Below the pieces are notes generated by a model, which worked only from the letters and a program-made list of their open reading frames with translations, made no database searches and was not told where the DNA came from. From Prosthecomicrobium sp. N25 (GTDB lineage: Bacteria > Pseudomonadota > Alphaproteobacteria > Rhizobiales > Ancalomicrobiaceae), in NCBI RefSeq assembly GCF_037203705.1, contig NZ_JBBCAT010000001.1:1089418-1153417 (forward strand): DNA of 64,000 bases, in the 5' to 3' direction. Shown one piece after another: positions 9,740 through 29,366 of the stretch. A program made the position numbers and the translations under genes. The first letter of the stretch is position 1. Each line of letters begins with the position of its first letter.

Positions 9740-11059
9740 ATGGTGATTTCGAAGAGGGGCGAGTCCCCGGTCCTCGTGGCGAAGCTGAGCGAATGGCTGA
9801 TGCGCTCCTCGCTGCAGGGCCTGGACCTGGAAAGCCTCGTGCGCGGCTTTTGCGACCGCATCTATGCGGCCGGCCTGCCGGTCGACCGCATCAACCTGAC
9901 CTTCTCGATGCTGCATCCCCTCTACCGCGCCATGGGCTTCACCTGGCGGCGCGGCCAGGGGCTGGAGGTGGAGAACTACGCCCACAGCCCGGCCCCCGAG
10001 CGCTTCCTGAAGAGCCCCTACTACTTCATCCTGCAGAACAACCTCGAGTCCCTGCGCCGTCGGCTGGATACCGGCGCGAAGTTCGAGTTTCCGCTCCTCG
10101 ACGAACTGCGCCGCAAGGGCGCGACCGACTACCTCGCCTTCGTGTACTCCTTCGGCGGCGGGCACGACGCCGGCATCGGCCGCGGCGTCATGGGAAGCTG
10201 GACGACGGACAGCAGGGGCGGCTTCTCGGAGCCCGACCTGGAGGCGCTCTTCAGCCTGCAGGCGAGCCTGGCGGTCGCCACCAAGATGGCCATGCAGGAG
10301 AAGCTGGCCGAGAACGTGCTGACCACCTATCTCGGCCAGGAGGCTGGGCGCAACGTCCTGAGCGGGCTCGTCAAGCGCGGCGACGGCGAGACCATCCGGG
10401 CTGCCCTCGTCATCGGCGACCTGCGCGAATCGACCGCCCTCGCCGAGCGCGACGGCCGCCAGCTCTTCACCGAGACGCTGAACCGTTTCTTCGACGCGCT
10501 CGCGCTCCCTTTCAGCAAGAACGGCGGTCAGATCCTGTCCTTCCCCGGCGACGGCTTCCTGGCCATCTTCCCGACCACCCGCTCCAGCGCGGGTTCGCGC
10601 GACGCCTGCCATCGCGCCTACGAGGCCATGATCGCCGGCACCGCACGGATGAACACGCTGAACCGCGAACGCCTGCAGGCCGGCATGGAGCCGCTCGGCT
10701 TCGGCATCGGCATGCATGTGGGCAACGTCATGTTCGGCAACGTCGGCCTGGCCGAGCGGCTGACCTATTCGGCCTTCGGGGCGGCCGTGAACGAGGTCCA
10801 GCGGCTCCAGGCCCTCACCCGCAAGCACGGCCGCAGCGTCATCGCGAGCCGCGAATTCGTCGAGGCCAGCGGCGGCGACTGGGTGCACCTCGGGGAGGAG
10901 CAGCTCCACGGAATCAGCGAGGCGCGGGAGGTCTACACCATCGACGCCTGCGCCCCCGATCTCCTCGCCGAGATGGAGGCGAACGGCCATCCCTGCCACT
11001 CGGAGGGCGAACTGGTCGTTCTCTCCCTGAGGAGAAGCAAGGCCGGCGCCGAAAGCTGA
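9740..11059 (+). CDS. class III adenylyl/guanylyl cyclase with N-terminal sensory region
   Basis: A 439-residue protein whose C-terminal half (about 215-410) is a class III nucleotidyl cyclase. GDLREST contains the first metal Asp (227) and SFPGDGFLAIF the second (271); GFGIGMHVGNVMFGNVG and the LTYSAFGAAVNEVQRL region follow as in the family. The first 200 residues show no membrane segment and look like a GAF-like sensory region. The product is most likely cAMP. It may be paired with the DUF3095 gene just upstream, and it lies about 13 kb from a gene for a cyclic-nucleotide-binding protein. Confidence 0.8.
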   Translation: MVISKRGESPVLVAKLSEWLMRSSLQGLDLESLVRGFCDRIYAAGLPVDRINLTFSMLHPLYRAMGFTWRRGQGLEVENYAHSPAPERFLKSPYYFILQNNLESLRRRLDTGAKFEFPLLDELRRKGATDYLAFVYSFGGGHDAGIGRGVMGSWTTDSRGGFSEPDLEALFSLQASLAVATKMAMQEKLAENVLTTYLGQEAGRNVLSGLVKRGDGETIRAALVIGDLRESTALAERDGRQLFTETLNRFFDALALPFSKNGGQILSFPGDGFLAIFPTTRSSAGSRDACHRAYEAMIAGTARMNTLNRERLQAGMEPLGFGIGMHVGNVMFGNVGLAERLTYSAFGAAVNEVQRLQALTRKHGRSVIASREFVEASGGDWVHLGEEQLHGISEAREVYTIDACAPDLLAEMEANGHPCHSEGELVVLSLRRSKAGAES

Positions 11060-11174: not shown

Positions 11175-13054
<1,880 letters not shown>

Positions 13055-13061
<7 letters not shown>

Positions 13062-14956
13062 CCCGCCGGGACGCACTCGGGCTCATGGCCCTGCCGCTCC
13101 TCACCCGCGTGGCCGGCGCGGCGCCGGTCGAGCCTCCGATCCTCGCCGAGAAGGTTGCCTCAGGCGCTCTGCCGCCCATGGCGGAACGCCTGCCGAAGGT
13201 CCCCAAGGTGGTCGACCTGGTGGCCATGGGCCGGCGCATCGGCCGGCACGGCGGCACGATCCGCACGCTCGTGGGCGGCCAGAAGGACATCCGCCTGATG
13301 ACCATCTACGGCTACGCCCGCCTCGTCGGCTTCGACGAGCGGCTGGAGCTGAAGCCGGACATCCTGGAGAGCTTCGAGGCCGAGGAGGACCGGGTCTTCA
13401 CCTTCCGCCTGCGCCAGGGCCACCGCTGGTCCGACGGCCATCCCCTCACGGCGGAGGACTTCCGTTACGTCTTCGAGGACGTCTACTCGAACCGCGAGCT
13501 CTCCCCGAACGGGCCGGACCAGACCATGCTGGTCGACGGCGAGATGGCGAAGTTCGAGATCCTCGACGAGCTGACCGTGCGCTACAGCTGGTCGAAGCCC
13601 AACCCGGACTTCTTGCTCGACATTGCCGGCGCCCAGCCCCTCCAGCTCGCCCTGCCGGCCCACTACATGCGCCAGTTCCACAAGCGCTACCAGGAGCCGA
13701 AGAAGCTCGAGGCGGCGATGAAGCAGTATCGCGCGCGCAAGTGGACCGAGATGCACATCCGCCTGTCGCGCCAGTATCGGCCCGAGAACCCGGACCTGCC
13801 CGTCCTCGATCCTTGGCGGAACACGACGCCCCCGCCCTCCGATCGCTTCCTCTTCGAGCGCAACCCGTTCTTCCACGAGGTCGACACCGAGGGGCGGCAA
13901 CTCCCCTACGTGGACCGGTTCGAACTGCTCGTCGGCCAGATGACGATCCTGGCCGCCAAGACCGGCGCCGGCGAGAGCGACCTCCAGTCGCTCGGACTCG
14001 ACTTCAGCGACTACACCTTCCTCAAGGACGCCGAGAAGCGTTACCCCATGAAGGTCAAGCTCTGGAAACGCATCCAGGGCTCGCGCATCGCCCTGATGCC
14101 CAATCTCAACTACCGTGACCCCGCCTGGCGCGCCCTCCTGCAGGACGTCCGCTTCCGCCGCGCCCTGTCGGTCGCCATCGACCGGCGCGAAATCAACATG
14201 GCGGTCTTCTTCGGGCTCGGCACCCCGAGTTCCGACACGGTCCTGCCCGCGAGCTCGCTCTACAAGGAGGCCTACGCCAAGGCCTGGGCCCAGTTCGACC
14301 GCGGCCTCGCCAACAGGCTCCTCGACGAGATCGGCCTCAAGGAGCGGGACGACGAGGGCCGCCGCCTGCTGCCCGACGGGCGTTCCGTCACCATGGTGAT
14401 CGAGACGGCCGGCGAGACCAACGTCGAGACCGACATCCTGGAGCTCATCGCCGACTACTGGTCGTCGATCGGCGTCGGGCTCTTCGTGCGCACGTCCCAG
14501 CGCGACATCTTCCGCAGCCGTGCGATCGGCGGCGACATCATGATGGCGGTGTGGTCGGGCGTCGACAACGGCATCCCGACCCCGGACATGAACCCCTCGG
14601 CCTTCGTGCCGACGGCCGAGGACCAGCTCCAGTGGCCGCAATGGGGGATGCACTACCAGTCCTCCGGCCAGCACGGTACCGCGGCCGACCTCCCGGTCGC
14701 GCTGGACCTGCTCGCGGAACTCGAACGCTGGCGAAAGGCGACCAGCACCGATGCGCGCCGCGCCGCCTGGGAGCGCATCCTGTCCATCTATGCCGACAAC
14801 GTCTTCTCGATCGGCCTGGTCAACCAGACCCTGCAGCCGGTGGTCGTCAACCGCCACCTCGTCAACGTGCCCGAGGAAGGTTACTTCGGCTTCAAGCCGA
14901 CCGCCTATTTCGGCGTCTACCGCTCCACGACCTTCTGGCTGGACGGGGAGGCCTGA
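13055..14956 (+). CDS. ABC transporter substrate-binding protein, family 5
   Basis: A 633-residue periplasmic solute-binding protein of the extracellular family 5 (DppA/OppA). It begins [16 protein letters not shown], a twin-arginine-like signal peptide. The domain core includes the [20 protein letters not shown] segment and, around residue 370, the [14 protein letters not shown] segment, both family hallmarks. It is longer than typical dipeptide-binding proteins, suggesting a larger or unusual ligand. It overlaps the ATPase gene upstream and is separated by two bases from the first permease. Confidence 0.88.
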
Positions 14957-14958
14957 CC

Positions 14959-15957
14959 GTGCTGCGCTACATCGTCTGGCGGATCGCCGTGATGATCCCG
15001 ACGCTGCTGCTCATCTCGATGCTGGTCTTCACCATCATCGAGCTGCCGCCGGGGGACTATTTCGAAAGCTACATCGCCGAGCTGCAGGCGCAGAACGAAA
15101 CCGTCAACATGCAGCAGATCAACGAGCTGAAGGCTCAGTACGGTTTCGACCAGCCTCCCGTGATCCGCTACTTCTACTGGGTCGGCGGCCTGCTGACGGG
15201 TGACTTCGGCTACTCGTTCGAGTACCAGCTGCCGGTGTCCGAGGTCGTCGGCAGCCGGCTCTACTTCACGATGCTGGTCTCCTTCGTGACCATCATCTTC
15301 ACCTGGCTGATCGCCTTCCCGATCGGCATCTACTCGGCCACCCACCAGTACAGCTGGGGCGACTACGGCCTGACGCTCCTCGGCCTGATCGGCGTGGCGA
15401 CGCCGAACTTCCTGCTCGCCCTCGTCATGATGTATTTCGCCAACATCTGGTTCGGCACCTCGATCGGCCACCTGGTCGACCCGGCCTATCTCGACCAGCC
15501 GATGAGCTGGGCGAAGGTCAAGTCGATCCTCGAGCATCTCTGGATCCCGGTCATCATCGTCGGGACCGCCGGCACGGCCGGCATGATCCGGCGCCTGCGC
15601 GCCAACCTGCTCGACGAGCTGCACAAACCCTATGTGGTGACCGCGCGCGCCAAGGGGCTCCGGCCCCGCAAGGTCCTGGTCAAGTACCCGCTCCGCATGG
15701 CGCTGAACTTCTTCGTCTCCGACATCGGCTCGATCCTGCCGGCCATCATCTCGGGCGCCGAGATCACCGCCATCGTGCTCTCGCTGGAGACGACCGGCCC
15801 CATGCTCATCAAGGCCCTGCAGAGCCAGGACATGTACCTCGCCGGCTCGTTCCTGATGTTCCTCTCCTTCCTGACCGTGATCGGGGTCCTCATCTCCGAT
15901 CTCGCGCTCGTGCTCCTCGATCCGCGCATCCGCGTCCAGGGAGGAGCCTCCAAATGA
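14959..15957 (+). CDS. ABC transporter permease (DppB-like)
   Basis: A 332-residue inner-membrane permease with the classical N-terminus MLRYIVWRIAVMIPTLLLIS (GTG start) and six predicted membrane segments. The EAA loop is YVVTARAKGL near residue 230. A long periplasmic segment between the first and second membrane spans is as in DppB/YejB. The GTG at 14959 directly follows the stop of the binding-protein gene, and no ATG lies near it. Its stop overlaps the next permease by 4 bp. Confidence 0.88.
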   Translation: MLRYIVWRIAVMIPTLLLISMLVFTIIELPPGDYFESYIAELQAQNETVNMQQINELKAQYGFDQPPVIRYFYWVGGLLTGDFGYSFEYQLPVSEVVGSRLYFTMLVSFVTIIFTWLIAFPIGIYSATHQYSWGDYGLTLLGLIGVATPNFLLALVMMYFANIWFGTSIGHLVDPAYLDQPMSWAKVKSILEHLWIPVIIVGTAGTAGMIRRLRANLLDELHKPYVVTARAKGLRPRKVLVKYPLRMALNFFVSDIGSILPAIISGAEITAIVLSLETTGPMLIKALQSQDMYLAGSFLMFLSFLTVIGVLISDLALVLLDPRIRVQGGASK

Positions 15958-17129
15958 GCCTCGAGCTTCCCGTCTCCGGGGCTCCGCTCGGCCACTTCGT
16001 GCGTCAGGGTGTTTTCGATCCGGAGCGGATCGAGACGGCCTCGCCCGAGCAGGCGCGCCTGGAGCAGGCCTCCCAGCTCCGCCTCATGTGGTGGAAGTTC
16101 CGCCGCCACAAGCTCGCCGTGGTGTCGGGCGTCTTCCTCCTCGCCCTCTACCTCATGATCGTCGTGTCCGAGTTCCTGGCGCCCTACGCGCTGCGGACGC
16201 GCAACATGGACTACATCCACGCGCCGCCCCAGGCCGTGCACCTGTTCCACGAGGGCGCTTTCGTGGGCCCCTTCGTGTACGGCCGCAAGATGAGCCTCGA
16301 CCTCGACCGGCTGAAGCGCGTCTACACCGAGGACACCTCGGACGTGCAGCGCCTGCGCTTCTTCTGCCGGGGCGACCCCTACCACTTCTGGGGCCTGTGG
16401 GCGGCCGACCTGCATCTCGTCTGCCCCGCCGAGGGCGGCCAGTTCTTCCTGCTCGGGACCGACCGGCTCGGCCGCGACGTGCTCTCGCGCATGATCTACG
16501 GCGCGCGCATCTCGCTGACGGTCGGCCTCATCGGCGTCAGCCTCAGCTTCATCCTCGGCATCGTCATCGGCGGGCTCGCCGGCTACTACGGCGGCACTTT
16601 CGACCTGATCGTCCAACGCATCATCGAGGTCCTGCAGTCGCTCCCCAGCCTGCCGCTCTGGATGGCCCTTTCGGCCATCACCCCGGCGACCTGGAGCCCC
16701 CTGCTCATCTACTTCGCCATTACACTCATTCTGAGCCTCCTGGACTGGACGGGCCTCGCCCGGGCGGTCCGCTCCAAGCTCCTGGCCCTGCGCGAGGAGG
16801 ACTACGTCCTTGCCGCCCAGCTCATGGGAGCCTCCGCGCCGCGGATCATCGGCAACCACCTGATCCCCGGATTCATGTCCCACCTGATTGCCACCGCCAC
16901 CCTCACCGTGCCGGGCATGATCCTGGGCGAGACGGCGCTGAGCTTCCTCGGCCTCGGCCTCCGGCCTCCGCTCACCAGCTGGGGGATCTTGCTGACCGAA
17001 GCCAAGAACGTCAGCGCCGTCGCGCTCTACCCCTGGCTTCTCTTCCCCGTGGTCCCGGTCGTCCTCGTCATCCTGGCCTTCAACTTCCTCGGTGACGGGC
17101 TGCGCGACGCTGCCGACCCCTACAAGTGA
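15954..17129 (+). CDS. ABC transporter permease (DppC/YejE-like)
   Basis: A 391-residue partner permease. After a soluble N-terminus of about 45 residues there is a first membrane span, then a long periplasmic stretch containing FLLGTDRLGRDVLSRMIYGARIS, the typical OppC/DppC motif, and five further spans. The EAA-like loop YVLAAQLMGASAPRI is present. The roughly 120-residue segment between span 1 and the GTDRLGRD motif is longer than in DppC and more like YejE. It ends the importer operon, 65 bp before the glycosyltransferase genes. Confidence 0.88.
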   Translation: MSLELPVSGAPLGHFVRQGVFDPERIETASPEQARLEQASQLRLMWWKFRRHKLAVVSGVFLLALYLMIVVSEFLAPYALRTRNMDYIHAPPQAVHLFHEGAFVGPFVYGRKMSLDLDRLKRVYTEDTSDVQRLRFFCRGDPYHFWGLWAADLHLVCPAEGGQFFLLGTDRLGRDVLSRMIYGARISLTVGLIGVSLSFILGIVIGGLAGYYGGTFDLIVQRIIEVLQSLPSLPLWMALSAITPATWSPLLIYFAITLILSLLDWTGLARAVRSKLLALREEDYVLAAQLMGASAPRIIGNHLIPGFMSHLIATATLTVPGMILGETALSFLGLGLRPPLTSWGILLTEAKNVSAVALYPWLLFPVVPVVLVILAFNFLGDGLRDAADPYK

Positions 17130-17194: not shown

Positions 17195-18397
17195 ATGACC
17201 CGCCGCCTCGACCACGCCCGCATCCTCATGTACAGCCACGATACCTTCGGCCTCGGGCACCTTCGCCGATGCCGGACGATCGCCCACTCGCTGGTCGAGG
17301 AATTCCGGGGCCTGAACGTCCTCATCATCTCCGGCGCGCCCATCGCGGGAGCCTTCGACTACCGCGCCCGCGTCGACTTCCTGAAGATCCCGAGCGTCAT
17401 TAAGCGCCGCAACGGCGAGTACACCTCGCTCGCCCAGCATGTCGACCTCGCCGACACCATGGAGATGCGGCGGCGCATGATCTTCAATGCCGCCCAGACC
17501 TTCCAGCCCGACATGATGATCGTCGACAAGGAGCCCCTCGGCTTGGACGGCGAGGTCGAGGACACGCTCGCCTACCTGAAGACGATCGGCACGACCCTGG
17601 TCCTCGGCCTGCGCGAGGTGATGGACGCCCCCGACCTGCTCCGCCGCGAATGGACGCCGAAGGGCATGCTCTCCAAGGTCGCAGCCCTCTACGACGACAT
17701 TTGGGTCTACGGCCCGCCGGACTTCTACAACCCCCTGGTCGGACTCGACGTGCCGGCCTCGGTCTCCGCCAAGCTCGACTTCGTCGGCTTCCTGCAGCGC
17801 GCCGTGCCCGAGGCCGACCTCGCCCGGCCCAAGCCCGATTCCGAGTACATCCTGGTCACCACCGGCGGCGGCGGCGACGGGGCCGACCTCGTCCAGGCGG
17901 TGATCGGCGCCTACGAGGCGGTTCCCGGCATGCCCCGGGCCGTCGTGGTCCTCGGCCCCTACATGCCGATGGAGCAGCGCAAGGCGCTGATGGCGCGCGC
18001 CGCCCCCATAGAGACGCTGTCGGTCGTCGAGTTCGAACCCCACATGGAGGCGCTGATCGCCGGCTCGGCGGCCGTCGTCGCCATGGGCGGCTACAACACC
18101 TATTGCGAGATCCTCTCCTTCGACAAGCCGGCCCTTATCGTGCCGCGCCTGCAGCCGCGCCAGGAGCAGCTCGTCCGCGCCCTGCGCGCCCGCGAACTGG
18201 GTCTGATCGGCATGATGCTCCCCGACGAGGCGGCCGACCCCGTCCGCATGGCCGCCGCCCTGAAGGCGCTTCCGGGCCGCACGCCGCCCTCCAAGGTCAG
18301 GCAGGACCTGCGCCTCGAGGGCCTCTCCCGCATCAACGAGATCGTCGGCGCCCGCCTGGCCCGGCCCGTGCTGAGCATCGTCCAGAGCGCCACATGA
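17195..18397 (+). CDS. MurG-like glycosyltransferase (COG4671 type)
   Basis: A 400-residue GT-B protein. The N-terminal half has HDTFGLGHLRRCRTIAHSL, like the MurG glycine-rich acceptor loop, and the C-terminal half has VVAMGGYNTYCEIL, the conserved nucleotide-sugar segment of family 28-type enzymes. The ATG at 17195 follows GGAGGTC; an ATG 23 codons upstream overlaps the permease stop but adds nothing family-like. It begins a three-gene set coupled by ATGA overlaps. It is not murG itself, because no division or murein genes are near. Substrate unknown. Confidence 0.75.
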   Translation: MTRRLDHARILMYSHDTFGLGHLRRCRTIAHSLVEEFRGLNVLIISGAPIAGAFDYRARVDFLKIPSVIKRRNGEYTSLAQHVDLADTMEMRRRMIFNAAQTFQPDMMIVDKEPLGLDGEVEDTLAYLKTIGTTLVLGLREVMDAPDLLRREWTPKGMLSKVAALYDDIWVYGPPDFYNPLVGLDVPASVSAKLDFVGFLQRAVPEADLARPKPDSEYILVTTGGGGDGADLVQAVIGAYEAVPGMPRAVVVLGPYMPMEQRKALMARAAPIETLSVVEFEPHMEALIAGSAAVVAMGGYNTYCEILSFDKPALIVPRLQPRQEQLVRALRARELGLIGMMLPDEAADPVRMAAALKALPGRTPPSKVRQDLRLEGLSRINEIVGARLARPVLSIVQSAT

Positions 18398-19647
18398 CCG
18401 GCCCCGGCCCCCGCCGCATCGTCGTGGTCCTCAAGGGATACCCGCGCCTCTCCGAGACCTTCGTGGCCCAGGAGCTGCTCGGTCTGGAGCGGTCCGGCTT
18501 CGACCTCGCCATCGTGGCCCTGCGCCGGCCGACCGACAAGCTCGTCCATCCGGTGCACAAGGAGATCCGCGCGCCGGTCCTCTACCTGCCCGAATATCTG
18601 CACGACGAGCCGCTGCGGGTCCTCGGCGCCCTCATGCGGGCGCTGGCCCGGCCGGGCTTCCGGCGCGCCCTCGGCCGGTTCCTCACCGACCTGCGGCACG
18701 ACTTCACACTGAACCGCATCCGGCGCTTCGGCCAGGCGCTCGTGCTCGCCGCCGAATGGCCGGCCGGCGGCGACTGGATCTACGCGCATTTCATCCACAC
18801 GCCGGCCTCGGTCGCCGCCTACGCGAGCGATCTCGTCGGCGTGCCCTGGAGCTGCTCGGCCCACGCCCGCGACATCTGGACCTCCGGCAAGGCCGACCTC
18901 GCCGGCAAGCTCGGTCACGCCCGCTGGGTGGTGACCTGCACGCGCGCCGGGCTCGACCGCCTGCGCGAGCTCACCGGCCGCCCGCAGGCCGTGCACCTCA
19001 GCTATCACGGCTTCGACTTCGCCCGCTTCCCGCCCTTCGCCGGCCGGCGCCCGCCGCGCGACGGCACCGACCCGGCCGATCCGGTCCTGATCCTGAGCGT
19101 TGGGCGGGCGGTCGCCAAGAAGGGCTACGGCGTCCTCCTCGACGCGCTCACCCGCCTGCCCGCCGCGACGGCCTGGCGGATGATCCACGTCGGCTCCGGC
19201 GAGGAACTCGCCGACCTGAAGCGCCGCGCCGAGGCGCTCGGCATCGCGCCCCGCATCGAGTGGCGCGGCGCGCTCGCCCAGGAGGAGGTGCTGCGCCTCT
19301 ACCGCCAGGCGGACCTCTTCACGCTCGCCTGCCGGGTCGCCGAGGACGGCGATCGCGACGGCCTGCCCAACGTCCTCATGGAGGCTTCCAGCCAGCGCCT
19401 CGTCTCGGTCACCACCAATGTCTCCGGCATCCCGGAACTCCTCGCCGACGGCGTCACCGGCCTGATCGTCCCCCCGGACGACCCGGCCGCGCTCGCCGCG
19501 GCGCTCGCCGCCGCCATCGCGGACCCGGCGCTCCGCGCGCGGCTCGGCGCCGCCGCCGAGGAGCGCGTCCGCCGCGCTTTCGACCACAGCCGCAGCATCG
19601 CCGACATCGCCGGACTGTTCCGCGAGACGGCGGGAGCCGGCGCATGA
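18394..19647 (+). CDS. glycosyltransferase family 4
   Basis: A 417-residue GT-B glycosyltransferase resembling colanic-acid-type enzymes. It opens KGYPRLSETFVAQEL, a segment common to this subgroup. The donor-binding half contains LSVGRAVAKKGYGVLLDAL, then DGLPNVLMEASSQ and VTTNVSGIPELL, with the E-x7-E type catalytic region. It overlaps both neighbouring glycosyltransferase genes by 4 bp, so the three products are probably made together and act in sequence on one glycan or glycolipid. Confidence 0.8.
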   Translation: MTGPGPRRIVVVLKGYPRLSETFVAQELLGLERSGFDLAIVALRRPTDKLVHPVHKEIRAPVLYLPEYLHDEPLRVLGALMRALARPGFRRALGRFLTDLRHDFTLNRIRRFGQALVLAAEWPAGGDWIYAHFIHTPASVAAYASDLVGVPWSCSAHARDIWTSGKADLAGKLGHARWVVTCTRAGLDRLRELTGRPQAVHLSYHGFDFARFPPFAGRRPPRDGTDPADPVLILSVGRAVAKKGYGVLLDALTRLPAATAWRMIHVGSGEELADLKRRAEALGIAPRIEWRGALAQEEVLRLYRQADLFTLACRVAEDGDRDGLPNVLMEASSQRLVSVTTNVSGIPELLADGVTGLIVPPDDPAALAAALAAAIADPALRARLGAAAEERVRRAFDHSRSIADIAGLFRETAGAGA

Positions 19648-20804
19648 GCGGCCCGTCCCTCTTCTTCTATGTCCAGCACCTGCTCGGGGTCGGCCACCTG
19701 GCGCGGGCAAGCCGCATCGCGGAGGCCGCCGGGCGGAAGGGGATGGCCGTCACGCTCGCCCTCGGCGGCATGCCCGTCCCGGGCTTCCCGCCGGCCGGCG
19801 CCGCGACCGTCCGCCTGCCGCCGATCCGCTCGCGGGACGCCGCCTTCTCGGTGATGGTGGACGAGGACGACCGGCCCCTCGACGCCGCCTTCGAGGCCCG
19901 CCGCCGCGACATCCTGCTCGACGCCTTCGACCGCTCCGGCGCCGACGTGCTGATGATCGAGGCCTGGCCCTTCGGCCGGCGCAAGCTCGCCTTCGAACTG
20001 GTCCCGCTCCTCGAGCGTGCCGCCGCCCGCCGCCCGCGGCCGTTGGTCGTCTGCTCGGTCCGCGACATCGTCCAGGCGAACCGCCGCCCCGATCGCCTCG
20101 CCGAGACCGTCGACCTGATCCGCAGCCGCTTTGACCTGGTGCTCGTCCACGGCGACCCCGCCTTCGCGCGGCTCGAGGCGGGCTTCCCGCGGGCGCGCGA
20201 TTTCGAGGACCGCATCCGCTACACCGGGCTCGTCGCCGCGACCCCCGAGCCGCCTGCCGCGGAGGCCTGGGACGTCGTCGTCTCCGCCGGCGGCGGCGCC
20301 TTCGGCAGGGGGCTCGTCGAGGCCGCCCTGGCGGCGGCGCGCAGGCTGCCCCCGGACCTGCGCATGCTCGTGCTGACCGGCCCCAATCTCCGCGAGGCCG
20401 ATCGGTCCGCGCTCGCCGCCGGCGCGCCCGCCAACGTCCGCGTGGAGGCTTTCCGGCCGGATTTCCGCGCCCTTCTGGCCGCGGCGCGCGTCTCCGTCTC
20501 GCAAGCCGGCTACAACACGGTCTGCGACCTCCTCCAGACCCGCTGCGAGATCATCCTGGTCCCCTTCCGCGGCGATCACGAAACCGAGCAGGCCGACCGC
20601 GCCGAGCGCCTGCGCAAGCTCGGCGCCGCGCGGGTGGTCGAGGAGGCGCGGCTCGGCACGGAGAGCCTGGCGGGCGCCATCCGGGCGGCCCTCGCCGGCC
20701 CGCCGATCCCCCGTCCGCACATCGACCTCGGCGGCGCGGACCGCACCATCGACATTCTCGCGGAGGCGGCCGGCCGGGCGGCTAGGTCGTCCCGATCAGC
20801 ATGA
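19644..20804 (+). CDS. second MurG-like glycosyltransferase
   Basis: A 386-residue protein distantly paralogous to the product of the gene two positions upstream. It starts YVQHLLGVGHLARASRIAEA, the same glycine-rich loop as MurG, and carries VSQAGYNTVCDLL followed by ILVPFRGDHETEQADRAERL, the sugar-nucleotide site. The last 23 bases overlap the end of the convergent methyltransferase gene. The pair of related enzymes around a family 4 enzyme suggests alternating transfer of two sugars; this is inference. Confidence 0.75.
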   Translation: MSGPSLFFYVQHLLGVGHLARASRIAEAAGRKGMAVTLALGGMPVPGFPPAGAATVRLPPIRSRDAAFSVMVDEDDRPLDAAFEARRRDILLDAFDRSGADVLMIEAWPFGRRKLAFELVPLLERAAARRPRPLVVCSVRDIVQANRRPDRLAETVDLIRSRFDLVLVHGDPAFARLEAGFPRARDFEDRIRYTGLVAATPEPPAAEAWDVVVSAGGGAFGRGLVEAALAAARRLPPDLRMLVLTGPNLREADRSALAAGAPANVRVEAFRPDFRALLAAARVSVSQAGYNTVCDLLQTRCEIILVPFRGDHETEQADRAERLRKLGAARVVEEARLGTESLAGAIRAALAGPPIPRPHIDLGGADRTIDILAEAAGRAARSSRSA

Positions 20805-21429
20805 AGCGGGTGTAGTTGCGGGTCGGCAGCGCGCCCGCGAAGCGTACCTCGGAGAGGCCGGCAAGCGCCTGGAAATCGGCCAGGGACGGCACGGAGGCGA
20901 TATGGGTGGGTTCGCGGAAGTAATCGTTCGACTGCAGGAGCACCCGGCTCCCGGACGGCAGCAGGTCGAGCCAGCCGCGCAGGTCAGCGATGTGCTCGCA
21001 GCTCGTGTTGACGACGAGGTCCGCCGGCGCGCTCTGGTAGTCGGCCGCGTACATGTCCCCCGTCCGCGCCGAGAAGCGATCGCCCGCCCGCCCGTTGAGC
21101 GTCGTCGCCACTGCGGCGACCTCCGGGTCGATGTCCAGGCTCTCGATGCGTTCGACCTCGAAGCGCGGATCGTCGAACAGCATCGCGGCGAGCACCCCGT
21201 ACCAGCCGCCGACGATCAGGATCGTGCCGAAGCGCCCGCCGAGGGTCGCCAACAGCGAGTCGCGCGCCCAGAGCTTGCTGGCGACCTGCTTACGGTTGAA
21301 CGCCGTCCCGATCCGGACCTGAGGGTGGCGCCCCACGGTGCGCGCGAGGTCGCGGACGAGCGCGTTGCCCGTATAGGCCGCGATGCCCCTGGTGAGATCG
21401 AAGCAGACGTCGCGCCAGTCCTCGGCCAT
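20782..21429 (-). CDS. class I SAM-dependent methyltransferase-like protein
   Basis: A 215-residue protein with a Rossmann-type SAM-binding pattern: ILIVGGWYGVLAAMLF (motif I-like), then RIESLDIDPE with the acidic residue after strand 2, and ADLVVNTSCEHI in place of motif IV. I start at the ATG with GGAGG six bases upstream, not at the more distal one. It converges on the glycosyltransferase cluster, overlapping its end by 23 bp, and is divergent from the ABC-like gene. It might modify the same glycan or a lipid precursor; the substrate is not evident. Confidence 0.65.
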   Translation of the reverse strand: MAEDWRDVCFDLTRGIAAYTGNALVRDLARTVGRHPQVRIGTAFNRKQVASKLWARDSLLATLGGRFGTILIVGGWYGVLAAMLFDDPRFEVERIESLDIDPEVAAVATTLNGRAGDRFSARTGDMYAADYQSAPADLVVNTSCEHIADLRGWLDLLPSGSRVLLQSNDYFREPTHIASVPSLADFQALAGLSEVRFAGALPTRNYTRFMLIGTT

Positions 21430-21539
21430 GCCGGTCCTCCAGCCCACAATTCAGATATTCGTATCTGTATTGCCAGCCGTCGCGATAATCTATGTTCGAC
21501 CGGCGCCGAGCCTGCCGCTCGGGCACACAGGACGTGACC

Positions 21540-21644: not shown

Positions 21645-24356
21645 GTGGAGCCGGTCCTCGCCCGCTACATCTGGCGTCACACCAGGCCACAGCAGCTCTG
21701 GATCCTGAGCGTCGTGGCGCTTTCGATGATCCCCTACTTCCTGTCCTTCGACCTGCCGAAGCAGATCATCAGCGGCCCGCTGCAGGGCAAGGGCTTCCCG
21801 GACCCGACCTCCACCGCCACGATGTTCCGGATCGCCTTCGACCTGCCGCTGGTCGGGCATGTCGTGCTGTTCGACGGCGTCGCCCTCGACCGCATGCAGG
21901 CGCTGCTCGGGCTCAGCATCGTCTTCCTGCTGCTGGTCGTCGTGAACGGCGCCTTCAAGTTCTACATCAACACCTACAAGGGCCGCCTCGGCGAGCGCAT
22001 GCTCCGCCGCATCCGCTTCGAGCTCGTCGACCGGGTCCTGCGCCACGGCCCCAGCTACTTCAAGCGCGTCAAGCCGGCCGAGGTCGCCACGATGGTCAAG
22101 GACGAGGTGGAGCCGCTCGGCGGCTTCATCGGCGACGCCTTCGTGCTACCGCTGCTCCTCGCCGGGCAGGCGCTGACGGCCCTCATCTTCATCGTCGTCC
22201 AGAACCACTGGCTCGGCATCGTCGCGACCTCCGTGGTCACGCTTCAGGTCCTGATCATCCCGAAGATGCGCAAGCGGCTCCTGCGGCTCGGCCGGGAACG
22301 CCAGCTGACCGCCCGCGAACTCTCGGGCCGCGTCGCCGAGATCGTCGAGAGCATCAACGCGATCCAAACCAACGACACGTCAAACTGGGAACGGGCCGAG
22401 ATCGGCGCTCGCCTGGCCCGCATCTTCCACATCCGCTACGACCTCTACCAGTGGAAGTTCCTGGTCAAGTTCCTGAACAACTTCCTGGCCCAGCTGACGC
22501 CTTTCCTCTTCTACCTGATCGGCGGCTACCTCGTCGTGAAGGGACGCCTCGACGTCGGCCAGCTCGTCGCCGTCATCGCCGCCTACAAGGACCTTCCGGG
22601 CCCGCTCAAGGACCTGATCGACTGGGACCAGAATCGCCAGGACGTACAGGTCAAGTACGCCCAGGTGGTCGAGCAGTTCGACGTCCGGGACATCCTGCCG
22701 CCCGAGAGCCAGGCGCTGACCACGGAGCCCCGCCCGCTCGGCCGGCCCCTGGCGGTCGAGAACCTGACCCTCATCGACGAAACCGGCGCCCGCCTGCTCG
22801 ACAGCACCTCGCTCGCCTTCCGGCCCGGCCAGACCGTCGCGGTCGTCGGCACGCCCGGGAGCGGCGGGGAGGCGCTGGTCGATGCCCTGGCCCGGGTGAT
22901 CTGGCCCACCACCGGCCGGGTTGTGGCCGGGTCCGAGGATTTGCAGAGGCTCCCGCAGTCGGTCACCGGCCGCCGCATCGCCTATGCGGGGCCGGAAGCC
23001 CATCTCTTCGCGGGCAGCATACTCGAGAACCTCGTCTACGGCCTGAAGCATGCGCCCGTCGCCGAGCCCATCTACGACGCCGCCGAGGCCAGGCGCCGGA
23101 AATGGGAGATGGCCGAGGCCATGAAAGCCGGGAACCCGGTGCTCGACGTGCGCGCCGACTGGATCGACTACCGGCTCGCCGGAGTCGAGGATGCAGGCCG
23201 CCTCTTCGACGCGCTCGAGCCGCTGCTCGAGACGGTCGGCATGGCCGGCGACGTCTTCGAGATCGGCCTCAGGACCTCCATCGACCCGGAGCACCACCTC
23301 GACATCCCGCCCCGGGTCGTCGCCGCCCGCGCCAAGCTGCGCCGTCGCATGGAGGAGCTCGGCATGGCCGAGCTGGTCATCCCGTTCCAGGAGGGCGCCT
23401 ACAATCCGGAGGCGACGGTCGCCGAGAACCTGCTCTTCGGCACGGCCACCGGCCCGGAGCTGGAGACCTCGACCCTCGCCGCGAATCCCTACCTGCGCGG
23501 CATCCTGGAGACCTCCGGTCTCGACCGGCGCCTCTACGACCTCGGCTTCGAGGTCGCCGAGAACGCCGTCGAACTCTTCCGCGACGTTGCGATCGACCAT
23601 TCCATGCTCCAGCAGCTCTCCATCGCCGGCGAGCAGGACCTGCAGGCGCTGCGCGCCATCGTGCAGCGCCGCGACGGCCGCGATATGGACCGCGCCGACG
23701 AAGCCGATCGCCGGCAGCTCCTGCAGCTCGCCTTCGCGTATATCGAGCCCCGGCTCCGCTTCGGCCTGCTCGACGACGACCTGATGGCGCGTATCGTCGA
23801 GGCTCGCGAGATCTTCCACGCCGACCTGCCCACCCCCCTCGCCAACGGGCTGGAGCGCTACGACTCGGAACGCTTCAACCGCTCGGCGACGCTCCTGGAC
23901 AACGCGCTCTTCGGGCGCGTCGGCCACCACTACTCGGACGCGAGCCGGCGCGTGACCGCGCTGGTGTTGGAGATCTTCCGCGAACTCGGCCTCTACCGGA
24001 TGGTCGTCGGCGTGGGGCTCCGCTTCGGCATCGGGCCGGGCGGGCGGCGCGTCACGCTGGGCCTCCGGCAGAAGATCAATCTCGCCCGAGCCTTGTTGAA
24101 ACGGCCTGACTACCTGCTGCTCAACCGGCCGCTCGCGGCGCTGGACGGTCGCGTCCAGGAACAGATCCTGGCGAACGTGCTCGCCTACCGACGCTCGACC
24201 GGAGCCGATGGCGGTGTCGTCTGGGCCCTATCCATGCCGAGCCTCGCGAAACATTTCGACCGTGTTATCGTCTTCGACGGGGCGAGCCTGGCGGAGGACG
24301 GCGAATACGACGATCTGGTGCAGACAGAGGGCGTTCTGAAACGCCTGGTGAGCTGA
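21645..24356 (+). CDS. ABC-exporter-shaped protein with degenerate nucleotide-binding domain
   Basis: A 903-residue protein, GTG start after GGAGGGG. Residues 15-330 form an ABC exporter-type transmembrane domain. The nucleotide-binding region (365-903) is abnormal. Walker A reads GTPGSGGEA (402-410), without the lysine. The signature is GLRQKINLARAL (805-816), Walker B is YLLLNRP (823-829) with Asp and Glu changed to Asn and Arg, and the H-loop histidine is replaced (ALSMP). About 340 extra residues separate Walker A from the signature and contain three ENLLFG-like segments (461, 594, 752). ATP hydrolysis is therefore unlikely. It is followed 25 bp later by a cyclic-nucleotide-binding protein, which suggests a shared function. 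Standard tools would probably call it an ABC transporter. Confidence 0.75.
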   Translation: MEPVLARYIWRHTRPQQLWILSVVALSMIPYFLSFDLPKQIISGPLQGKGFPDPTSTATMFRIAFDLPLVGHVVLFDGVALDRMQALLGLSIVFLLLVVVNGAFKFYINTYKGRLGERMLRRIRFELVDRVLRHGPSYFKRVKPAEVATMVKDEVEPLGGFIGDAFVLPLLLAGQALTALIFIVVQNHWLGIVATSVVTLQVLIIPKMRKRLLRLGRERQLTARELSGRVAEIVESINAIQTNDTSNWERAEIGARLARIFHIRYDLYQWKFLVKFLNNFLAQLTPFLFYLIGGYLVVKGRLDVGQLVAVIAAYKDLPGPLKDLIDWDQNRQDVQVKYAQVVEQFDVRDILPPESQALTTEPRPLGRPLAVENLTLIDETGARLLDSTSLAFRPGQTVAVVGTPGSGGEALVDALARVIWPTTGRVVAGSEDLQRLPQSVTGRRIAYAGPEAHLFAGSILENLVYGLKHAPVAEPIYDAAEARRRKWEMAEAMKAGNPVLDVRADWIDYRLAGVEDAGRLFDALEPLLETVGMAGDVFEIGLRTSIDPEHHLDIPPRVVAARAKLRRRMEELGMAELVIPFQEGAYNPEATVAENLLFGTATGPELETSTLAANPYLRGILETSGLDRRLYDLGFEVAENAVELFRDVAIDHSMLQQLSIAGEQDLQALRAIVQRRDGRDMDRADEADRRQLLQLAFAYIEPRLRFGLLDDDLMARIVEAREIFHADLPTPLANGLERYDSERFNRSATLLDNALFGRVGHHYSDASRRVTALVLEIFRELGLYRMVVGVGLRFGIGPGGRRVTLGLRQKINLARALLKRPDYLLLNRPLAALDGRVQEQILANVLAYRRSTGADGGVVWALSMPSLAKHFDRVIVFDGASLAEDGEYDDLVQTEGVLKRLVS

Positions 24357-24381
24357 CCGGCAAGGAGAGGAACGGGCGGAC

Positions 24382-24843
24382 GTGAGCATGACTCTGAAGG
24401 ACGAAGTCGAACTCCTCAGGCGAGTCCCGCTCTTCGCGGGCATAGAGCCGGCGAAGCTCAAGCTTCTCGCCTTCTCGTCGCGCCGCCTGCGTTTCCAGCC
24501 TGGCGAGGTGGTGTTCCGGCAGGGCGACACCGGCGATGCGGCCTATGTGGTGCTGAGCGGATCGGCGGACGTGATCGTCGACACGCCGGCCGGCGAGATC
24601 CATGTGGCGACCATCGCGTCGAACGACATCGTCGGCGAGATCTCGATCCTGTGCGACGTCACCCGCACCGCGACCGTCCGCGCCCATGGCGCCCTCGAGG
24701 TGTTGCGCATCCAGAAGGACGACTTCCTGCGCCTGCTGGAGGGCTTCCCGTCGCTCGCCCTGAAGATCATCAAGGTGCTGGCCGACCGCCTCGCCGATAC
24801 CACCGCGGAACTGATCGACGCCCGCTCCGTCCGCAGGTCCTGA
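24382..24843 (+). CDS. stand-alone cyclic-nucleotide-binding domain protein
   Basis: A 153-residue protein consisting of one CNB domain with no DNA-binding domain. The phosphate-binding cassette VGEISILCDVTRTATV keeps the key Glu86 and Arg95 that hold the cyclic phosphate in cAMP-binding relatives, so it should still bind nucleotide. FQPGEVVFRQGDTGDAAYVVLSG is the usual beta-barrel start. I use GTG 24382; an ATG two codons in is equally possible. It lies just after the degenerate ABC gene and 25 bp from the convergent cyclase-FHA gene, so it may carry a cAMP signal to the membrane protein. Confidence 0.8.
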   Translation: MSMTLKDEVELLRRVPLFAGIEPAKLKLLAFSSRRLRFQPGEVVFRQGDTGDAAYVVLSGSADVIVDTPAGEIHVATIASNDIVGEISILCDVTRTATVRAHGALEVLRIQKDDFLRLLEGFPSLALKIIKVLADRLADTTAELIDARSVRRS

Positions 24844-24868
24844 GAGGATCGGGCCCCAAGCCGCCGCC

Positions 24869-25780
24869 TCAGGCGAGCTGGAAGGACAGGAGCTCGGCAG
24901 GGTCAGCGTCCGCCGCCGGATGCCCGAAGCTGATCCGGCCGGACCCGATCAGGATGAGGTCTTCGCGGCAAAGTTCGATCTCGTCGGCGTCCGCGAGCGT
25001 CACGTAGGTGCCGTTGGTGCTGTGGTCCGTCAGCACCCACTGCCCGCGCCGCCGCTCCAGGGTGGCGTGCCGGCGTGATGCGTTGGCGTCGGCGAGCGGC
25101 ACCTCGCAGGCCCGGTCGCGCCCGAGCTCGATCCGGCCGTGGTTGTCGTCGAACACCCAGCGCCGGTCCCCGATGGTCAGGACGAGCTTGCGATTCGAGC
25201 CCGGGCCGATCGACCGCTCGCCCGCCATCCGGACCACGTGGGTGAGGTCGCGCTCCTTCTGCCACAGCATCTCCACGACGCTGAGCTCCTCGCTGCGCCC
25301 CTTCACGAACTGGTCGGCGAGCTGCCGCGTCGCCGCCCGGTGCGGCGGCGGCAGCAGCGCCACGGTGTCCAGCGTCGTCATGATCTGCCCAGGCCGGGCG
25401 ATCCGCACCAGCCGCGAGGCGACGTTCACGGTATCGCCGAAATAGTCGCCCCGGTCCTCGATCACCGGGCCGAACACGAAGCCGATCCGCAGCCGCAGCT
25501 TGGCCGTGCTGTCCGGCGCCCTGAGCGGCGGCAGCCCCTCGACCCGCTCCTGCACGGCCCGCGCTGCCAGCGACCCGCCGAGGGCGTCCGGAAAAGCGGC
25601 CATCAACTCGTCGCCGATCGTCTTGACGACGGTGCCGTCGAACCGACGCACCACCTCGCCGATCGCGCCGAGGCAGCCGTCGATCGCGTCGAGCGCCGCC
25701 CTGTCGCCGAACGTCTCGTAGAGCTGCATGCTGTCGACGATGTCGCCGAACAGGATCCCGGCGTTGTGCCCGCCCGTCAT
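24869..25780 (-). CDS. class III nucleotidyl cyclase fused to an FHA domain
   Basis: A 303-residue cytoplasmic protein. Residues 5-175 are a class III cyclase: FGDIVDS (Asp13), KTIGDELMAAF (Asp57) and the transition-state segment GDTVNVASRL (Asn119, Arg123) are all present. Residues 198-300 are an FHA phosphothreonine-binding domain with ELGRD, SRRHATL and STNGTYV. The start is MTGGHNAGILF; the frame is open 76 codons further upstream but that sequence is arginine-rich and unlike the family. It converges on the CNB gene, and its product could be the signal for that protein. FHA implies recruitment by a Ser/Thr-phosphorylated partner, none of which is in the window. Confidence 0.82.
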   Translation of the reverse strand: MTGGHNAGILFGDIVDSMQLYETFGDRAALDAIDGCLGAIGEVVRRFDGTVVKTIGDELMAAFPDALGGSLAARAVQERVEGLPPLRAPDSTAKLRLRIGFVFGPVIEDRGDYFGDTVNVASRLVRIARPGQIMTTLDTVALLPPPHRAATRQLADQFVKGRSEELSVVEMLWQKERDLTHVVRMAGERSIGPGSNRKLVLTIGDRRWVFDDNHGRIELGRDRACEVPLADANASRRHATLERRRGQWVLTDHSTNGTYVTLADADEIELCREDLILIGSGRISFGHPAADADPAELLSFQLA

Positions 25781-26135: not shown

Positions 26136-27674
26136 TCAGACCGACGAGGAGGCCTCGTAGAAGGGCTTGCGCGGCTCGTCCCGGATGTAGCCTTCGTAGA
26201 ACTTCTTCACATGCGGGAATACGTCGAAGCCGAGCTGGCGGCGGGCGACCTCTTCGGGCGTGCGCGGCCTGGCGAGCAGGTCGTGGATCTCGGCCAGCAC
26301 CGCGTCGCGGTCGACCTTGGTGAACTTGCCGTCCGCATAGACGACCTCGCCGTCCACGTAGACCGCGGAGACGTGCCGGCTGTGCGCACGCTGCACGAGC
26401 GCGTCGAGCATCGGGATGTCGGCGTCCTGGTAGGGGTAGAAGGCCTGGTCGACGTCGATCAGGACCGCGTCGAAGAAGCGGCCTGGGTCGAGCCGGCCGA
26501 TCGACGACCCGAAGGCGGTCGTCTTGGCGCCGCCCTCGCTCGCCATGCGGAAGATCTGGGTCGGCGTCGGCACGTCGTCGTCGAAGCCCGGCGTACGGTG
26601 GACCCGAAGCGCCAGCTTCAGCTCCTGCAGCATGTCCCGGTCCTCGTTGATGCCGGCCTCGTCGAGCCCCATCCCGACGTTGATGCCCTTCGCCTCCCAG
26701 ACGTTGAGCGGCGCGAGCCCGGAGCGCAGGCGGAAGTTGGAAGAGCAGTTGTGGCAGATGCAGGTGCCCGTGTCGGCCGCGATGTCGATGTCCTCGGCGG
26801 TCAGCCAGACGCCGTGGCCGAGCGTCATGTGTGGACCGAGGAGGCCGAGGTCGTGGAGGTGCCGGACGGCGGTCTTGCCGGTCCGCCGGTAGGCGTATTC
26901 CTTCTGGAGCGCGGTCTCCAGGAGGTGCATGTGCATGGGCGCGCCGGTCGCCTTGGACTTCTCCTGCATGGCGAGCAGGCCGTCGTCTGACACCCAGTGC
27001 AGGTTCGCGGGCGCCAGCTGGACCCGGGTGAGGCGCTGCCCGGCATTCTCGGCGGTGAGCTGGTCGAAGAGCCGCATGAAGTCCGCGAAGGGCATCACCT
27101 GCGTGGTCAGGTAGGCCTGGAGCCGTGCCCCGAGCTCCTTCGGCAGGCTCGCGCAGAATTCCTCGTCGGCCTGGTAGACGAGCCGGTTCTGCTCGCGCAC
27201 CGCGTAGCAGTAGGAGGCCCGCATCCCGATCGTCCGGTAGCCGGTCAGGACCTTGGTGGCCGCTTCGTGGATCGCCCCGTAGCCGCCCGGCATCCAGCCG
27301 TGGATGTGCTGCACCGTGGTGATGCCCGAGGCGATCATCTCGAAGGCGGAGTAGAGCGTGTCCAGGTAGAGGTCGATCCGCCGCGCCGGGATGCGGCTCG
27401 CGAACCACAGCTCCAGCGGATGGTCTGGCGACCCGTGCTGCAGCGGCGTGATCCCCACGTGGTGGTGCGAGTTCACAAAGCCCGGCAGCATCGCGTGCTT
27501 CGGATATTTCTTCACCGGCGCCGTAGGCGCGAGCTTCACCATCTCGTCGAGCGAGCCGGTCGCCACCACCACGCCGTCGCGCGCCAGCACGGCGCCGTCG
27601 TCGACCACGATGGGCGTGTGGCGGTCCGCGGCGCCGGTCACGAGGTGGCGGGCCTGGACGATCAGTTCTGCCAT
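26136..27674 (-). CDS. metal-dependent amidohydrolase (cytosine deaminase/TrzA-AtzB-like)
   Basis: A 512-residue amidohydrolase-superfamily enzyme that probably deaminates or hydrolyses a ring C-N bond. The zinc site is complete: NSHHHVG (His70/His72), HMHLLE (His248/250), LGHGVWL (His287) and GLDEAGIN (Asp338). The small N-terminal beta-sandwich MAELIVQARHLVTG is standard. It is the last gene of a minus-strand operon with an ABC importer and a nitrilase, overlapping the nitrilase gene by 13 bp. The substrate is unknown; the neighbourhood suggests a small imported nitrogen compound. Confidence 0.82.
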   Translation of the reverse strand: MAELIVQARHLVTGAADRHTPIVVDDGAVLARDGVVVATGSLDEMVKLAPTAPVKKYPKHAMLPGFVNSHHHVGITPLQHGSPDHPLELWFASRIPARRIDLYLDTLYSAFEMIASGITTVQHIHGWMPGGYGAIHEAATKVLTGYRTIGMRASYCYAVREQNRLVYQADEEFCASLPKELGARLQAYLTTQVMPFADFMRLFDQLTAENAGQRLTRVQLAPANLHWVSDDGLLAMQEKSKATGAPMHMHLLETALQKEYAYRRTGKTAVRHLHDLGLLGPHMTLGHGVWLTAEDIDIAADTGTCICHNCSSNFRLRSGLAPLNVWEAKGINVGMGLDEAGINEDRDMLQELKLALRVHRTPGFDDDVPTPTQIFRMASEGGAKTTAFGSSIGRLDPGRFFDAVLIDVDQAFYPYQDADIPMLDALVQRAHSRHVSAVYVDGEVVYADGKFTKVDRDAVLAEIHDLLARPRTPEEVARRQLGFDVFPHVKKFYEGYIRDEPRKPFYEASSSV

Positions 27675-28546: not shown

Positions 28547-28562
28547 GGCCTCGAGGGTCGCG

Positions 28563-29366
28563 TCAGGCGGCTTCCTGCTCGGCGAAGGCGCGGTCCACCT
28601 CGGCCGCCAGCAGCTCGGTGAAGAGGTCGCGGTATTCGTGGTAGCGCGGGTCGCGGCTTGGCCGCGGCCTCGGCAGGTCGATCGGCACGATGGTCTTCAC
28701 CCGCCCGGGCCGGGCCGTGAACACCACCACCCGGTCGGCGAGCGAGATCGCCTCGTCGATCGAGTGGGTGACGAGCAGGATCGAGGCGCCGCTGTCGCGC
28801 CAGATCTGCAGCAGGAAGTCCTGCATGCGCGAGCGAGTCTGCACGTCGAGCGCCGCGAAGGGCTCGTCCATCATCAGCACCTTGGGCTTCATCGCCAGGG
28901 CGCGCGCGCAGGCCGCCCGCTGCCGCATGCCGCCCGAGAGCTCGTCGGGCTTCTTGTCGAGCATGTCGCCGAGCCCCACGCGCTTCAGCATCTCCACGGC
29001 GATCTCGCGTCGGCGCGCCACCTGGATGCCCTGGATGGAAAGCCCGAAGGCCACGTTGTCGGCGATGGTCAGCCACGGGAACAGCGAGGCCTCCTGGAAG
29101 ATCAGCCCCCGCTCCGCGGAGGGTTCCGTGACCGGCAGCCCGTCGCACACGATCGTGCCGGCGCTGACCGGCTCGAGCCCGGCGATCATGTAGAGGAGCG
29201 TGGACTTGCCGCAGCCCGAGGGTCCGAGCAGCACCACGAACTCGCCGGGCGCGACCTCGAAGTCGAGGCCGCGGATGGCCTCCACGGGGGAGCGCCCCTC
29301 CGGGGTCCAGATCTTGTCGACGTTCCGGACGGCGACCGCGGGGCGGGACGTGCGGGGCTGGTTCAT
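28563..29366 (-). CDS. NitT/TauT-type ABC transporter ATPase
   Basis: A 267-residue ATPase of the nitrate/sulfonate/taurine importer group. Motifs are intact: GPSGCGKST, FQEASLFPW (Q-loop with the LFPW signature of this group), LSGGMRQRAACARAL and VLMMDEPFAALD. The ATG overlaps the permease stop by 4 bp. The frame continues upstream but that part is a shadow of the permease gene. It energises the importer whose permease and binding protein are the two genes upstream. Confidence 0.88.
   Translation of the reverse strand: MNQPRTSRPAVAVRNVDKIWTPEGRSPVEAIRGLDFEVAPGEFVVLLGPSGCGKSTLLYMIAGLEPVSAGTIVCDGLPVTEPSAERGLIFQEASLFPWLTIADNVAFGLSIQGIQVARRREIAVEMLKRVGLGDMLDKKPDELSGGMRQRAACARALAMKPKVLMMDEPFAALDVQTRSRMQDFLLQIWRDSGASILLVTHSIDEAISLADRVVVFTARPGRVKTIVPIDLPRPRPSRDPRYHEYRDLFTELLAAEVDRAFAEQEAA

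Follow-up and report, generated by a model that had tools for sequence, protein, structure and literature searches.

The 64,000-nucleotide stretch of the Prosthecomicrobium sp. N25 genome analyzed here (contig NZ_JBBCAT010000001.1, positions 1,089,418 to 1,153,417; hereafter the window) contains a pair of genes encoding a protein that resembles an ATP-binding cassette (ABC) exporter and a stand-alone cyclic nucleotide-binding (CNB) protein. The ABC-like protein combines an exporter-type transmembrane domain (TMD) with a degenerate nucleotide-binding domain (NBD). A third gene, encoding a class III cyclase fused to an FHA domain, converges on the pair. All three genes are intact, and the open reading frame (ORF) list confirmed the coordinates given in the initial annotation (Table 1) as well as the spacings of 25 bp each between ABC and CNB and between CNB and FHA-cyclase. 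The ATG of the FHA-cyclase gene lies at 25780, and the longest ORF of this frame extends to 26008. Pfam matches are ABC_membrane (73 bits) and a partial ABC_tran (46 bits) in the ABC-like protein, cNMP_binding (76 bits) in the CNB protein, and Guanylate_cyc (53 bits) and FHA (47 bits) in the cyclase. The initial annotation regarded the three genes as one cAMP-controlled module in which phospho-threonine recruitment governs the cyclase, and the CNB protein senses its product and acts on the membrane protein. This proposal was partly supported: the ABC–CNB unit and the cyclic nucleotide theme stand, whereas the FHA-cyclase and the phospho-threonine step do not. The proposal also left out a co-directional block upstream, which includes a second class III cyclase.

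The pairing of the ABC and CNB genes was followed through 198 loci, comprising an 80-locus set (the best 80 of 577, mostly Rhizobiaceae and Phyllobacteriaceae), 97 loci drawn from the class (94 genomes), 20 loci of order-level relatives, and the window. Loci outside the 80-locus set form a 117-locus set, from which locus L032 is left out. Fragment matches in genomes G183 and G198 and small fragments in other genomes of the class search were dropped before the count, as were G016 and G059 of a 61-genome search and the extra genomes of a phylum search. Not all loci are independent, as three come from genome G213 and two from G102, and L032 and L073, whose contigs are equally long, are probably one genome. 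At 182 of the 198 loci, the CNB gene follows on the 3' side of the ABC gene as a gene of its own with the same strand; at 10 loci it shares one open frame with the ABC gene, and at 6 it was not detected, at least one of these (L158) being on a short contig. The gap between the two genes, measured at 162 of the 182 loci, has a median of 35 bp and is ≤150 bp in 155 cases. In two further records, Pfam places ABC_membrane and cNMP_binding in a single protein and so confirms the fusion: Ruegeria sp. AD91A (1035 aa) and Azospirillum oryzae (1074 aa). Adjacency or fusion at 192 of 198 loci is beyond chance and bears out the view of the initial annotation that the two genes belong together. The fusion is a strong sign that both proteins act together physically. 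It requires one change on the ABC tree (FastTree of TMD columns; 115 of the 117 loci and 7 of the 80), at a branch with a support of only 21, and may therefore be one old event. Overall, the ABC–CNB unit is well supported.

The ABC side of the unit has lost most of what an ATPase requires. In the window protein, the Walker A position reads GTPGSGGE, Walker B reads LLLNR, the signature reads VTLGL, and the H-loop residue is Ser; the earlier description of this protein as dead is thus correct, and the intact motif set of an active exporter is absent. Among 196 ABC sequences, the canonical Walker A (GxxGxGK[ST]) was found in two (L156 and L158) and the LSGGQ signature in none. The residues K, D, E, and H are all kept in 3 of the 196 and all lost in 108, including the whole 80-locus set. 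The six members without a detected CNB gene retain more ATPase residues than the others (mean 3.2/7 vs. 1.2/7; Mann–Whitney P 0.003, from six sequences and with relatedness ignored; the score is a plain count of seven motif features). L137, L156, and L158 are CNB-less members of this kind. This is at most a hint that the ATP-driven and the CNB-linked form could be alternatives.

The exporter fold itself is retained. An AlphaFold2 model of the ABC-like protein (20-row alignment; mean pLDDT 82.4, pTM 0.75) resembles ABC exporters of the PDB; against TmrAB chain 6rai_B, for instance, the TM-score is 0.65 by target length and 0.42 by query length. Together with the ABC_membrane match, this points to an exporter TMD fold, and many TMD columns are invariant in the 20-row family alignment. 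The NBD contains three copies of a segment with an ENLxFG-like motif (Asn at residues 462, 595, and 753). When profiles of these copies were compared with one another, the probabilities were 91, 93, and 97%, whereas two control comparisons with TMD columns reached 0.1 and 0.3%.

The CNB protein has taken the opposite course. The initial annotation described its phosphate-binding cassette as intact, and this is right: the window protein carries GEISILCDVTRTATV with the G-E...R pattern of PF00027, and in 192 CNB sequences the cassette residues are conserved at 100% (G), 96% (E), 100% (R), 94% (T), and 97% (A). No DNA-binding domain was found in the Pfam scan of the window CNB protein. The ABC side has thus let its ATPase site go while the CNB side kept its ligand site. 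A second ORF with a CNB domain is present in the window at about 33869–34885 on the minus strand (about 338 aa).

The pair often lies beside genes for glycan synthesis. In the window, the order is a class III cyclase, an Opp-type importer (four genes), three glycosyltransferases, an opposite-strand methyltransferase, and then the ABC and CNB genes. Apart from the methyltransferase, which is missing there, all of these ten genes recur on Rhizobium etli CFN 42 plasmid p42e with order and strand preserved, and they are 53–79% identical. Sinorhizobium meliloti ml46 pSymB has the ten genes and the methyltransferase, with a polysaccharide lyase inserted; two glycosyltransferase frames are unlisted there and were matched only in part. 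In Mesorhizobium WSM1497, the same genes are split into two blocks, with a DUF3095 gene similar to that of the window alongside. The methyltransferase-like gene holds the same place in S. meliloti and Mesorhizobium. In Azospirillum, the importer and glycosyltransferases follow the fused ABC–CNB gene, and in Sulfitobacter a nucleotide-sugar dehydrogenase, four glycosyltransferases, a histidine phosphatase, and a polysaccharide deacetylase precede a 1035-residue ABC gene. The annotation in these five cases agrees with a glycan context; the plasmid gene tables are incomplete listings. Within the flanks, GT28-like genes occur at 80 of the 117 and 70 of the 80 loci, GT4-like genes at 82 and 73, and deacetylase-like genes at 58 and 38, respectively.

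Table 1. Features of the window that concern the ABC–CNB pair, its neighbor, and the upstream block
Feature	Position	Strand	Size or part	Basis
Pseudo-ABC exporter: exporter-type TM region (ABC_membrane) and degenerate NBD	21645..24356	+	903 aa	ORF list, Pfam
Triplicated NBD segment	~22962–23924		residues 440–760 of ABC protein	20-row family alignment
Stand-alone CNB protein, cassette intact	24382..24843	+	153 aa	ORF list, Pfam
Class III cyclase fused to FHA domain, convergent	24869..25780	-	303 aa	ORF list, Pfam
Class III cyclase, head of block	9740..11059	+	439 aa	Guanylate_cyc 26 bits (cut-off 22), synteny
Opp-type importer, double ATPase	11175..13061	+		ABC_tran x2 and oligo_HPY, synteny
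Opp-type solute-binding protein (SBP_bac_5)	13055..14956	+		Pfam, synteny
Opp-type permease B	14959..15957	+		Pfam, synteny
Opp-type permease C	15954..17129	+		Pfam, synteny
Glycosyltransferase, GT28-C-like	17195..18397	+	longest ORF starts 17126	Pfam, synteny
Glycosyltransferase, GT4 type	18394..19647	+		Pfam, synteny
Glycosyltransferase, GT28-C-like	19644..20804	+		Pfam, synteny
SAM-dependent methyltransferase-like	20782..21447	-		weak Pfam match below cut-off; 58–63% identity to S. meliloti and Mesorhizobium

The cyclase at the head of the block is 51–54% identical to its counterparts in R. etli, S. meliloti, and Mesorhizobium; it is this gene, 10.6 kb upstream, and not the FHA-cyclase, that is syntenic in the three genera. 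It has Ser/Ser at the substrate-specifying positions instead of the Lys and Asp/Thr of an adenylyl cyclase, while the metal Asp, Asn, and Arg are present. In eight of 20 chosen ABC-bearing genomes (own included), its best match shares contig and strand with the ABC gene and is no more than 12 kb away; in the other twelve, it is on another contig (nine), absent at E ≤1e-25 (two), or not judgeable (one). Just upstream of this cyclase, a DUF3095 protein is encoded at 8472–9617 on the plus strand (384 bits), with GDG and DIVNST stretches that look cyclase-like to the eye; nothing on DUF3095 was found in the open-access literature searched. Transcriptional control through a CRP-type site was considered and rejected: TGTGA-N6-TCACA with ≤2 mismatches occurs once in the window, within the gene for the importer ATPase, whereas chance alone would give 8.3 occurrences.

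An MBL-fold hydrolase gene (WGVRGS type; for example L044:6717-7553) is found in the flanks at 14 of the 117 and 43 of the 80 loci (57 in all), often directly after the CNB gene. Its reading as a proven cyclic nucleotide phosphodiesterase (NF041851) was rejected, as one representative reached 28.5 bits against a cut-off of 400. In the window, the minus strand at 26136–31425 encodes an amidohydrolase (Pfam) and then, by eye, nitrilase-like and nitrate/sulfonate-type ABC importer genes, which are apparently unrelated to the pair.

Cyclases recur on the 3' side of the pair. In the 117-locus set, 17 cyclase genes, distributed over 16 loci, lie 2.7–6.7 kb after the ABC start, an interval picked after the cyclase positions were seen, against 1.36 expected. 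In the 8.4 kb upstream of ABC, five were found against 2.7 expected, and 6.7–11 kb after the ABC start there were two against 1.3. The 97 class-drawn loci alone gave seven cyclases against 1.1 expected (P 2e-4), and five remain after removal of two cyclases of a common type (P 0.006), where both P values ignore relatedness and the difference between the search profile and PF00211. The search profile was built from ten class III catalytic domains, of which these loci supplied two, and the genome-wide background density was taken from 1,497 PF00211 matches (E ≤1e-3) in 480 Mb of 113 genomes, with rounded sizes and without genome G045. These cyclases are built in different ways. The window has the FHA type. 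Ferredoxin-type (2Fe-2S) cyclases occur at L033 and L229 (Fer2 by Pfam) and at L035 and L039, which cluster with L033. Cyclases with a hydrophobic N-terminal part occur at L041, L043, L044, L045, and L050 (one cluster) and at L139 (by eye), and L147 has a GAF type by Pfam; the remaining ones are at L046, L206, L207, and L176, and at L147, which has a second cyclase. On the ABC tree, the trait changes state ten times, so cyclases came to this place repeatedly. Within the flanks of the 80-locus set, cyclases are found at 33 loci, at varied distances and on either side. At L113, L115, L118, L119, and L126 (Agrobacterium vitis, Allorhizobium, and similar), two different cyclases lie less than 4 kb upstream of ABC, and one of those at L113 is of ferredoxin type by eye. 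With the nearly invariant CNB cassette and this 3' over-representation, the cyclic nucleotide theme of the initial annotation is likely.

The FHA-cyclase is only one of these neighbors. Its aligned sequence shows the full canonical set of a class III adenylyl cyclase (D, K, D, D, N, and R): the two Asp that hold the metal, the Lys and Asp/Thr that specify the substrate, and the Asn and Arg of the transition state. No match to it was found at E ≤1e-20 in 100 other genomes, two of the same genus included, and the profile of its FHA region matches at 1 of the 198 loci, the window itself. The FHA-cyclase was therefore rejected as a conserved third part and, by its distribution, appears to be a local recruit, one of several cyclase types beside the pair. 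As it was seen in the window genome only, phospho-threonine recruitment cannot be a general feature. The initial annotation had regarded freely varying neighbors as evidence against its module; the CNB neighbor is constant, which speaks for the unit, and the FHA-cyclase neighbor varies, which speaks against a third member.

The ABC family is concentrated in the Alphaproteobacteria. A protein search with the window ABC (E ≤1e-60) found it in 23 of 61 genomes (own included), and among 289 genomes sampled from the class, a 20-row family profile found it in 97 (own included), about a third, mostly as a single copy. The same profile matched 22 of 299 genomes drawn from the phylum; 21 of these belong to the class, and the remaining match is partial (profile positions 15–336). 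Plasmid records with the gene number 262, among them 144 of Rhizobium and 80 of Sinorhizobium. The protein search (E ≤1e-60) found no match in 14 other genomes of the same family, and in 8 of these the profile also had no match at E ≤1e-20, in a run that had no positive genome alongside, although the profile matches the window genome in the class and phylum searches. The nearest tree neighbors of the window ABC are Mesorhizobium, Agrobacterium, and Rhizobium (7-row set, local support 99). From these two observations, the locus was probably gained horizontally, or else lost in the sister genomes.

Together with these data, it can be proposed, with middling confidence, that the pair is a cyclic-nucleotide-responsive pseudo-ABC/CNB unit of the inner membrane that serves a surface-glycan locus by gating or licensing a membrane step. 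The two proteins would be the halves of one unit. The ABC half would retain the exporter fold without the motifs for ATP hydrolysis, and the CNB half would bind a cyclic nucleotide. The most likely ligand is cAMP, which any of several class III cyclases in the cell could supply; of the 112 genomes with the ABC gene, 111 carry at least one PF00211 match. The ligand-bound CNB protein, sitting on the degenerate NBD, would shift the state of the membrane part, and the unit would most likely gate or license a membrane step for the glycan. The locus served would comprise glycosyltransferases, in many cases together with a polysaccharide deacetylase; some genomes add a nucleotide-sugar dehydrogenase and an Opp-type importer.

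Several observations weigh against this proposal. The Walker A Lys is kept in 31% of the 196 ABC sequences, and because a minority thus retains some of the ATPase motifs, not every member of the family is dead to the same degree. One small Methylobacterium plasmid lists no CNB gene and leaves only about 235 bp from the ABC gene to the next listed gene. Ruegeria and the Methylobacterium plasmid list no glycosyltransferases nearby, and Phyllobacterium T1293 lists only one, plus a deacetylase. At 101 of the 117 loci, the near 3' interval has no cyclase, and the Azospirillum, Ruegeria, and Sulfitobacter stretches list none. Lastly, the CNB domain of the ABC exporter HetC bound ppGpp and not cAMP (PMC10986499), which indicates that the ligand cannot be read from a CNB fold alone.

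The first alternative is a signaling receptor or scaffold without transport, which, as a pseudo-enzyme, would relay the cyclic nucleotide signal through the membrane domain to the glycosyltransferases or the periplasm. Dead ATPase motifs next to many invariant TMD columns and a conserved CNB protein suit such a role, whereas no output domain was found besides the TMD and the NBD-like part; the present data do not separate a receptor from gating, and this alternative is judged unlikely. The three-part module of the initial annotation, in which phospho-threonine recruits the FHA-cyclase and the CNB protein senses local cAMP and acts on the ABC-like protein, is distinctly doubtful. It draws on the tight packing of the genes, the canonical residues of the FHA-cyclase, the recurrence of cyclases beside the pair, and 11 Pkinase matches in the genome, which make phospho-threonine possible. 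Apart from its restricted distribution, the FHA-cyclase gene is convergent and outside the operon, and the genome holds 16 Guanylate_cyc (PF00211) and 18 cNMP_binding matches, i.e., 15 besides the FHA-cyclase and 17 besides the window CNB, so specific wiring between these neighbors is not implied.

A further alternative, that the ABC-like protein is the inactive half of an ATP-driven heterodimer whose active half-transporter is encoded elsewhere and whose activity the CNB protein tunes, is considered improbable. Partly degenerate partners are normal in ABC heterodimers, and the exporter-fold matches of the model include the heterodimers TmrAB and TM287/288. However, Walker A, Walker B, the signature, and the H-loop are eroded together, beyond the need of a heterodimer with one degenerate site, and the NBD carries the triplicated segment. 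Another ORF matching the family TMD model occurs at 4 of the 198 loci in a search of the flanks only, in which a distant partner was not sought; a second half-transporter as an obligate neighbor was therefore rejected. A Pycsar-like immune unit, in which a cyclase product opens a CNB-controlled membrane effector and the infected cell is killed, is very unlikely and was rejected as a defense system after the PADLOC scan: the window CNB matches PycTIR (52 bits) and the upstream cyclase, which lacks the adenine-specifying Lys and Asp/Thr, matches PycC (51 bits), but this cyclase lies 10.6 kb from the CNB receptor, the FHA-cyclase next to the pair scores just 19 bits against PycC, the ABC protein has no PADLOC match, and the family is widespread, mostly single-copy (97 of 289 class genomes), and syntenic with a glycan cluster, whereas defense genes are patchy.

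As a tentative possibility, the family could represent a bacterial class of ligand-gated pseudo-ABC proteins. Such proteins would have given up ATP-driven pumping for cyclic nucleotide switching through a dedicated CNB partner and would control how a glycan, or the lipid that carries it, crosses the inner membrane, with cyclases that differ by lineage. In well-studied rhizobia, the pair is annotated as "ABC transporter ATP-binding protein" and as "cyclic nucleotide-binding protein" or "Crp/Fnr regulator". Because the ABC protein has lost most ATPase motifs and the window CNB protein has no Pfam DNA-binding domain, both labels are probably misleading. Rhizobia have many adenylate cyclases and few known targets apart from Clr-type regulators. 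A membrane target beside a glycan locus would, if true, give some rhizobial cyclases a non-transcriptional output that is testable in model strains, and the pair suggests that a surface-glycan step may be switched by a route not yet studied.

No description of the ABC–CNB family or locus was found in the open-access literature searched (one library, with long lists judged by titles and abstract starts). The nearest described analogues, HetC and the Pycsar effectors, differ from the pair. HetC of Nostoc PCC 7120 is an ABC exporter of six TM helices whose attached CNB domain is required for function; it needs its ATPase glutamate, it has a C39 peptidase, and its CNB domain is N-terminal and bound ppGpp but not cAMP (PMC10986499). 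In the pair, by contrast, the ATPase motifs are eroded, no peptidase appears in the Pfam scans, and the CNB, with a canonical cyclic nucleotide cassette, has its own gene on the 3' side or is fused to the C-terminus, so the window proteins are not of the HetC type. The bacteriocin-transport-associated CNB proteins of TIGR03896 are also, by name, tied to an ABC export system, but the window CNB reaches 48 bits, far under the family cut-off of 161. TIGR03896 proteins have a two-CNB layout and a cyanobacterial range.

Pycsar likewise couples a cyclase, PycC, to a CNB-controlled effector (PycTM or PycTIR), one effector type of which is membranous (PMC11224242). The pair lacks a compact cyclase–effector gene arrangement, and its membrane part is a 900-residue pseudo-ABC protein. 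The adjacent FHA-cyclase has adenylyl-type residues, Lys and Asp included, which is at odds with a pyrimidine cyclase encoded beside the CNB protein. Control of polysaccharide genes by cAMP is described for S. meliloti in a study of Clr, where it acts via a transcription factor (PMC5498481). The exporters MsbA, TmrAB, and TM287/288 share the fold and domain order of the ABC-like protein, which differs from them in having lost the ATPase motifs and gained extra NBD repeats. Like the pair, the pseudo-ABC regulator SUR and the ABC-derived channel CFTR use an exporter fold for sensing or gating instead of simple pumping; unlike the pair, both are eukaryotic, are controlled by ATP or a kinase, and work without a CNB partner.

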